A stretch of 39,703 nucleotides of DNA, taken from NCBI GenBank assembly GCA_030616085.1, contig JAUWYA010000005.1, positions 1 through 39,703 on the forward strand, written 5' to 3'. The notes under the pieces are model-generated. The model was not told the DNA's origin and did no database searches. It saw nothing but the letters and a program-made list of their open reading frames with translations. A program made the position numbers and the translations under genes. The first letter of the stretch is position 1. The number at the start of each line of letters is the position of its first letter. Of the stretch, positions 2,390-35,147 are shown in pieces. The stretch is from Candidatus Nealsoniibacteriota bacterium. GTDB taxonomy: Bacteria; Patescibacteriota; Minisyncoccia; Minisyncoccales; GWA2-38-27.

Positions 2390-2412
2390 AATTTTATTTT
2401 CTTTATCTTTTG

Positions 2413-2484
2413 AGCCGGAGGGGAGAATTGAACTCCCGGCCTTTTTCTTACCAAGAAAACGTTCTGCCACTGAACTACTCCGGC
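2413..2484 (-). tRNA. tRNA-Thr(GGT)
   Basis: Cloverleaf GCCGGAG...CTCCGGC, anticodon loop TTGGTAA, T-loop TTCAATT. Confidence 0.95.
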
Positions 2485-2488
2485 AAAA

Positions 2489-3082
2489 CTAATTATAGAT
2501 TTTTTTAATTTCTCCTAAAATTTGCTCTTTTAGTTTTTTATTGGTAAATGATATTGTCAGAACCCCGTATTCGCTTTTCTTTCTATAAGTTCCCTTGCCC
2601 TGCGGTGGTATGATAGTTATTTTCCCGAGTTGTTTTCTCTTAATTTCAAGGTGCTTTTTCCAAAAACTTACTGCTTTTGATTCTTTAATGTCGTTAAATA
2701 AAATTAACCCGTAGCAAAATTTCTCTTCTTTAGCTCGATATATCTTTCTTAAAAATTCTCTAAATTTTTTAATTAAAAATGGATCTGTATTCCCTAAACG
2801 AACCGATGTATTATAGGGACTTTTGTCTCCTTCTCCCCAATAAATACCAAGTCCCAATGCTTTAAGTTCACTTTCTTTTCTACTAAGCTTTGTTTTTATT
2901 TTAAATGGATCACCATTAGGATTTCGTTTTATATAAGTAGCTTCGCTTCTAGATCTTCTCGGAATATTATAATTAATCATCCAGTAAGTAACCGGATGAT
3001 AATTCCATCCTGTTTTATCAGAAATTTCTTTCATTGATAAGCCACTTCTATATAATCTTTCTAATTTATTTTTAGGTAGCAT
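2489..3082 (-). CDS. HTH + LAGLIDADG-like putative homing endonuclease
   Basis: HTH-like N-terminus (LSMKEISDKTGWNYHPVTYWM) and LAGLIDADG-like motif LKALGLGIYWGEGDKSP...RLGNTDP; start taken at MLPKNK because the longer ORF runs through tRNA-Tyr. Confidence 0.7.
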   Translation of the reverse strand: MLPKNKLERLYRSGLSMKEISDKTGWNYHPVTYWMINYNIPRRSRSEATYIKRNPNGDPFKIKTKLSRKESELKALGLGIYWGEGDKSPYNTSVRLGNTDPFLIKKFREFLRKIYRAKEEKFCYGLILFNDIKESKAVSFWKKHLEIKRKQLGKITIIPPQGKGTYRKKSEYGVLTISFTNKKLKEQILGEIKKIYN

Positions 3083-3083
3083 G

Positions 3084-3165
3084 TGGGTGCGGCAGGAATT
3101 GCACCTGCGAAGCCCTAAGGCGCCTCTTTTACAGAGAGGTGGAATAGCTACTCTCCCACGCACCC
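3084..3165 (-). tRNA. tRNA-Tyr(GTA), class II
   Basis: GGGTGCG...CGCACCC acceptor, loop CTGTAAA, 14-nt variable arm, T-loop TGCAATT. Confidence 0.95.
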
Positions 3166-34798: not shown

Positions 34799-34845
34799 AA
34801 TCCTCGCAAGCAAGCAAAAAGCCCGAAAGGGCTTCTGTTTGTTTG

Positions 34846-34919
34846 CGGGAGCGACCGGACTCGAACCGGCAACCTTTTCCGTGACAGGGAAACGATCTAA
34901 CCAATTGATCTACGCCCCC
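34846..34919 (-). tRNA. tRNA-Asp(GTC)
   Basis: GGGGGCG...CGCTCCC acceptor, loop CTGTCAC, T-loop TTCGAGT. Confidence 0.95.
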
Positions 34920-35000
34920 ACTTCGCAAGCTTCGCTTGCTCAGTGTAAACTACTTTAGTCAATCATTCTTGTTTACCCTGAGGAGTGAAACAACGAAGGG

Positions 35001-35073
35001 TGCCGATGGCAGGGATCGAACCTACGACCTTGGCCTTATGAAGACCTCGCTCTAACCACTGAGCTACACCGGC
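35001..35073 (-). tRNA. tRNA-Met(CAT), elongator type or tRNA-Ile2
   Basis: GCCGGTG...CATCGGC acceptor, loop TTCATAA, T-loop TTCGATC. Confidence 0.9.
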
Positions 35074-35147
35074 TGGTCGCGGGGACAGGAATTGCACCTG
35101 TGTCTCGAGGTTATGGGCCTCGCAAGATACTACTTCTCCACCCCGCA
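35074..35147 (-). tRNA. Initiator-like tRNA-fMet(CAT) with encoded CCA
   Basis: TGCGGGG...CCCCGCG acceptor with non-Watson-Crick 1-72, CGAGG-CCCATAA-CCTCG anticodon arm, ACCA at 3' end. Confidence 0.88.

Follow-up and report, generated by a model that had tools for sequence, protein, structure and literature searches.

Two tRNA genes with an altered inner elbow pair

We analyzed a stretch of 39,703 nucleotides from Candidatus Nealsoniibacteriota bacterium (Patescibacteriota, order Minisyncoccales; assembly GCA_030616085.1, contig JAUWYA010000005.1, positions 1 to 39,703 of the forward strand), in the following referred to as the window. It carries a tRNA-Tyr gene and an initiator tRNA gene (tRNA-fMet) in which the two bases of the inner elbow pair, normally G18 in the D-loop and pseudouridine 55 (Psi55) in the T-loop, are replaced by A18 and G55. 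Three further tRNA genes of the window serve as internal controls (Table 1). An initial annotation had noted that Tyr and fMet share this coupled change, with tRNAs for Thr, Asp and Met keeping the usual bases. Reading of both genes by hand bore this out, and the comparison tRNAs are indeed canonical in D-loop and T-loop.

Table 1. Positions of the tRNA genes and their elbow loops in the window.
Feature	Position	Strand	Evidence or assigned bases
tRNA-Tyr(GUA), A18/G55	3083..3165 (ARAGORN/Rfam start 3083/3084)	-	ARAGORN; RF00005 52.4 bits, whole-genome search
tRNA-Tyr D-loop AGTAGCTA	3145..3152	-	A18 = base 3149, G19 = base 3148; read by hand
tRNA-Tyr T-loop TGCAATT	3097..3103	-	U54 = 3103, G55 = 3102, C56 = 3101, A57 = 3100, A58 = 3099
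Initiator tRNA-fMet(CAU), second A18/G55 gene	35074..35147 (start 35074/35077)	-	ARAGORN; RF00005 50.6 bits
tRNA-fMet D-loop AGTAGTA	35128..35134	-	A18 = base 35131, G19 = base 35130
tRNA-fMet T-loop TGCAATT	35090..35096	-	G55 = base 35095, C56 = base 35094
tRNA-Thr(GGU), canonical G18/U55, internal control	2412..2484	-	ARAGORN and reading
tRNA-Asp(GUC), canonical G18/U55, internal control	34845..34919	-	ARAGORN and reading
Second CAU tRNA (elongator Met or Ile2), canonical G18/U55, adjoins tRNA-fMet, internal control	34999..35073	-	ARAGORN and reading

Numbered by hand, the D-loop of tRNA-Tyr reads A14 G15 U16 A18 G19 C20 U20a A21 and its T-loop U54 G55 C56 A57 A58 U59 U60; the corresponding loops of tRNA-fMet are A14 G15 U16 A18 G19 U20 A21 and UGCAAUU. 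Both genes score above the RF00005 cut-off of 29 and have the standard stems and loops of a canonical cloverleaf. The canonical inner pair of G18 with U55 or Psi55 is absent from both, A18 and G55 standing in its place. G19 and C56, competent for the outer Watson-Crick pair, are present in the two genes and in the surveyed relatives, and U54 and A58 are in place for the reverse Hoogsteen pair. The T-loop follows the pattern U-G-N-R-A: both genes have UGCAA, and virus tRNAs and relatives with A18/G55 have either UGCAA or UGCGA. Tyr and fMet of the window also have an identical T-arm core (CAGGTGCAATTCCTG).

The initiator identity of tRNA-fMet is indicated by the CAU anticodon, A11:U24 and the lack of a Watson-Crick pair at 1:72 (U1 opposite G72); no second gene with initiator features turned up in this genome. 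The three G:C pairs at 29-31:39-41 are missing, GGG:CCC being replaced by A29-G30-G31:C39-C40-U41. The gene also has C33 instead of U33; elsewhere in the order C33 and weakened GC pairs are found repeatedly (L028-L048).

The genome as a whole (740 kb in 35 contigs, 98.4% complete) contains 37 matches to RF00005, all of which were read at positions 18, 19, 55 and 56. Canonical tRNAs other than Tyr and fMet have G18 G19 and U54-U55-C56, the deviations being one Thr gene and one odd Ala-like gene (described below). Such a tabulation, extended to relatives, had been proposed in the initial annotation; in the surveys of relatives positions 18 and 55 switch together and G19 and C56 are kept.

Covariation of positions 18 and 55 within the order

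The sample from the order comprised 247 genomes; to judge by match coordinates that coincide between two of the searches, genomes named Wildermuthbacteria and Gribaldobacteria are among them. For initiator tRNAs the search pattern was left free at both 18 and 55, and 80 genes were tabulated from the printed matches, most identical repeats within a genus being left out. A18/G55 was present in 67 genes and G18/U55 in 13; mixed combinations did not occur. One of the 67 is the elongator CAU tRNA of genome G125 and not an initiator. In several families the initiators have gone back to G18/U55, the two bases having changed together. The pattern for tRNA-Tyr, free at position 55 and blind to the D-loop, matched in 193 genomes. 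We took 90 loci, of which 88 were readable: 43 have A18/G55, 45 have G18/U55 and again none is mixed. Both tRNA-Tyr states coexist in 9 of 30 families and even in one genus. When the two isotypes are combined, all 168 unselected genes have either A18 with G55 or G18 with U55. Independent variation of the two positions, named in the initial annotation as the observation that would speak against coupling, was looked for and not seen in any of them.

In eleven tRNA-Tyr genes the D-arm is built differently, its stem being longer and its loop reading TACGGCG or TAGGGGG. Ten of them have GG together with U55, and the remaining gene (L056, loop TAGAGGG) has A18 and G55 together. The coupling therefore also holds on this second D-arm scaffold. 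In this class the D-stem is extended (e.g. TCCCG/CGGGG) and the 7-base D-loop lacks the usual A14 and A21; its members (L059, L065, L066, L067, L078, L087, L089, L132, L133, L134 and L056) are scattered over five families of the order (f1, f11, f17, f20, f22).

Elongator-type genes of the order picked for G55 and left free at position 18 had A18 in 28 of 28 cases, with anticodons for Thr (UGU, CGU, GGU), Met, Phe, Val and Cys. In the reverse selection no clear A18/U55 elongator was found in the order; the U55 matches there read AGG, i.e. G18 G19. A18/G55 is more than a chance occurrence: both states are found across the 247 genomes, always switching together.

A57 accompanies G55 in 107 of 110 genes of the order. 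We rejected A57 as an obligatory third member of the set, G57 being commoner in viral A18/G55 tRNAs (45 of 63).

Occurrence in other Patescibacteria, other bacteria and viruses

A phylum-wide search followed the same rule among the matches listed, A18/G55 being scattered among initiators that are mostly G18/U55. Initiators from named genomes that were selected for G55 had A18 in 78 of 79 cases and belong mostly to Patescibacteria (Parcubacteria, Microgenomates groups, WWE3, Uhrbacteria and others). On virus contigs from IMG/VR, where ambiguous loops were judged by eye, selection for G55 gave A18 in 62 of 63 distinct sequences, selection for A18 gave G55 in all 76, and selection for U55 gave G18 in 78 of 79. 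The virus contigs with an A18/G55 CAU tRNA number more than 100. Some further D-loops were likewise assigned by eye: L161 and L330 read A18 G19 G20, L451 and L505 read G18 G19, and L162 proved not to be a tRNA. All surveyed samples, order-level as well as selected, retain G19 and C56.

A candidate cellular case outside Patescibacteria is the A18/G55 copy of a Prevotella metagenome-assembled genome (MAG), located on an 86-kb scaffold (L155). A further copy lies on a 4-kb contig assigned to Actinomycetes (L141), a taxon assignment that is uncertain. In Euryhalocaulis caribicus an A18/G55 CAU tRNA (L193:71-4200) is situated beside integrase-like and repressor-like open reading frames (ORFs), and another CATAA match in the same genome has U55. 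This copy is probably a prophage tRNA and not a cellular case.

A proposed A18-G55 elbow contact

In the normal elbow, T-loop residues 57 and 58 (residues 4 and 5 of the loop) leave a gap into which residue 18 inserts to bond Psi55, and G19 pairs with C56 (PMC4810234, PMC7912444). We consider it very likely that in the tRNAs described here the inner pair G18-Psi55 is replaced by A18-G55, that matched combinations work and mixed ones are selected against, and that lineages flip between the two states by a coupled double change. The T-loop of A18/G55 tRNAs would be of the UGNRA type (U54-G55-C56-R57-A58), in which G55 may take over the turn of U55 in the manner of the G that opens GNRA-like turns. 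A18 would slot in between bases 57 and 58 and contact G55. The covariation agrees with an intercalated A where the second loop residue is G, base 18 being A in 78/79, 28/28 and 62/63 of the samples selected for G55. The ribosome, RNase P and other partners stack on the G19-C56 face, which would be preserved; since this outer face is unchanged, the contacts to ribosome and RNase P should be kept as well. G18/G55 and A18/U55 are rare, which suggests that mixed states are disfavoured, and selection would act through the stability of the elbow. The switch appears to affect mostly initiator and Tyr tRNAs and occasionally those for Thr, Phe, Val and Cys and the elongator CAU tRNA.

The covariation recurs across families and isotypes with G19, C56 and A58 retained, and as far as sequences can tell the coupled replacement of the inner pair is real and general, a strong case. 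Near-constant co-change across hundreds of tRNAs from Patescibacteria and viruses therefore argues that the contact is no error but a genuine alternative, interchangeable with the usual one. The term "compensatory" used in the initial annotation is well supported for the covariation, by the unselected genes of the order, the elongators and the viral samples in both directions; the physical contact itself we infer.

Comparison with known systems places the A18/G55 tRNAs close to the canonical elbow, with the same loops and positions, G19, C56, U54, A58 and normal loop lengths. They differ in A18 and G55 themselves, so that there is no U55 to isomerise and no G18 to 2'-O-methylate. In the interdigitated T-loops of T-box, RNase P and ribosomal L1 stalk the fifth residue of the partner fills the 4/5 gap and contacts residue 2 (PMC4810234). 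From the T-box T-loop consensuses AGAGA and UGxRA (PMC7583486) it follows that the gap-filling A sits opposite a G at residue 2. UGCAA and UGCGA of the present tRNAs fit UGxRA, and an inserted A would again face G; here, however, it comes from the D-loop of a tRNA and not from a second T-loop. In tRNA-Pyl both interloop pairs are absent, the D-loop is small and the core is altered (PMC6337575); a shortened 8-9 linker also belongs to this type of elbow. The absence of the G18-Psi55 pair is shared with it, whereas the present genes keep an ordinary D-loop and G19-C56: D-loops have 7-8 nt with A14, G19 and A21, the 8-9 linker has two bases, and C56 is kept. Eukaryotic tRNA-Ala offers another coupled purine-purine replacement of conserved tertiary pairs (15/48 and 54/58), but at other positions, and it is reported to be absent from bacteria and archaea (PMC7566577). 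An A18-G55 pair in tRNA was not found in the open-licence literature searched. Suppressor tRNAs whose D- and T-loops had been randomised were reportedly selected in vivo by the Steinberg group (~2004-2007), and related combinations may be among them.

A number of observations weigh against the proposed replacement. One MAG initiator copy combines G18 with G55 (L152; the same genome also has a U55 copy), one viral tRNA is possibly A18/U55 (L501) and another viral G55 tRNA is ambiguous (L295). Within the genome of the window a Thr(UGU) gene (L006) has C55 with G18, and an odd Ala-like gene (L027) has G55 with U18; G18/C55 is also present in Lys tRNAs of one genus (G106, G107). Several samples fixed one of the two bases and so give one conditional only, the count of switches is based on family and genus labels and not on a species tree, and the proposed A18-G55 geometry is drawn by analogy. 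Taken by themselves, the C55 genes (L006 and the Lys tRNAs of G106 and G107) represent another variant at position 55.

TruB and alternative explanations

The initial annotation had pointed out that loss of U55 removes the target of TruB, and had suggested checking for truB. The statement is true by definition, and at the level of sequence the loss of the target is real. It is without consequence here: a search for TruB (TruB_N) that matched all 14 control genomes found none in the present genome, which is 98% complete, so that of a TruB substrate relationship neither U55 in the two tRNAs nor the enzyme was found. The RluA-type pseudouridine synthase family PF00849 was not found in the genome either, and TruB is present in only 49 of the 247 genomes of the order (not found in ~80%). 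These findings would fit a modification-driven change, in which TruB loss removes the benefit of U55 and leaves tRNAs to drift or adapt towards an A18-G55 contact that needs no modification. We nevertheless regard this explanation as unlikely. Most tRNAs of the genome keep U55 though no TruB was found, and G55 in tRNA-Tyr shows no significant association with a lack of TruB (Fisher test, p = 0.16 with genomes and 0.44 with genera as units). Furthermore, TruB-bearing genomes also carry A18/G55 initiators (e.g. G015, G036, G147, G217), so TruB loss is neither necessary nor shown to be the cause, and as a cause we rejected it.

Explanations in which the two bases are merely transmitted together fare less well. 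Phage-derived A18/G55 tRNAs, or copying between Tyr and initiator genes, would let both bases travel as a block, and the numerous virus contigs, the Euryhalocaulis copy next to an integrase-like ORF with its U55 counterpart, and the T-arm core CAGGTGCAATTCCTG shared by Tyr and fMet of the window all point in this direction. However, from one family of the order to another the genes have different D-, anticodon and T-stems, and each keeps the features of its isotype, and transfer of whole genes would not match 18 to 55 across isotypes and D-arm architectures such as that of L056; we consider such spread distinctly improbable as an explanation of the coupling. Gene conversion between Tyr and fMet of the window was rejected as a general cause, the T-arm likeness being local to this genome. 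Inheritance of a single ancestral double change, without physical coupling, is more improbable still. Much of the initiator state is inherited, as A18/G55 is the majority state in the order, but tRNA-Tyr is split about evenly with both states side by side in families and in one genus, initiators of several families return to G18/U55 at both bases, and the coupling extends to other isotypes, to Microgenomates, WWE3 and Uhrbacteria and to virus contigs. Scarcely credible, finally, is a loss of the elbow contact without replacement, be it by degeneration of both positions in a reduced genome or by assembly errors. The genome is small and its initiator diverges at other positions as well; degeneration, however, predicts many combinations where only two were seen among the unselected genes, G19, C56 and A58 remain, and A18/G55 is seen repeatedly, in independent assemblies as well as on virus contigs.

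Other features of the window and genome

An ORF of ~196 amino acids (MLPKNKLERLYRSGLSMKEISDKTGW...; window 2490-3082, minus strand) starts directly after tRNA-Tyr and ends beside tRNA-Thr. It has a helix-turn-helix-like start, no Pfam match was found for its protein, and it may perhaps encode a homing-endonuclease-like protein.

The only tRNA-Ala(UGC) candidate found in the genome (L026) has acceptor-stem mismatches at 5:68 and 6:67 and was missed by ARAGORN. In addition we noticed a family of Ala-like tRNA genes with three copies in the genome (L564:2027-2126 on the minus strand, L563:2011-2118 and L562:1266-1372) and relatives at L565, L566, L278, L279, L280 and L283, 5 of 14 family genomes giving a match. 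Its members have the acceptor GGGCCYG/CGGGTCC with G3:U70, in most cases a UGC T-loop, and an apparent 9-base anticodon loop for which ARAGORN calls the anticodons UGG, UAG or UGA. Upstream lies a conserved GTGGAYC that can pair with the 3' end (GGTCCAC) in place of the acceptor strand. One copy lies near an alaS-like ORF. These genes perhaps specify an Ala-tRNA that does not decode, or form a mobile or switch-like element.

Significance

In the literature G18 and U55 count as conserved in all life, and no tRNA modification is said to be more universally conserved than Psi55 (PMC7912444). A recurrent natural replacement means that the conserved element is the architecture with an inserted base and not the particular bases. 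The A18/G55 set provides a large body of covariation data for testing tRNA elbow structure and offers a modification-free elbow for engineered tRNAs, and software for finding tRNAs or predicting their modifications will misjudge these genes where it assumes U55. A18/G55 also marks tRNAs of phages and Patescibacteria that TruB and TrmH cannot modify at positions 55 and 18. Probably A18-G55 is a second standard form of the inner elbow pair that had gone unrecognised, in use in initiator and other tRNAs across much of Patescibacteria and in numerous phage tRNAs: a reversible two-base module that would free the tRNA from modification to Psi55 and 2'-O-methylated G18 (Gm18).
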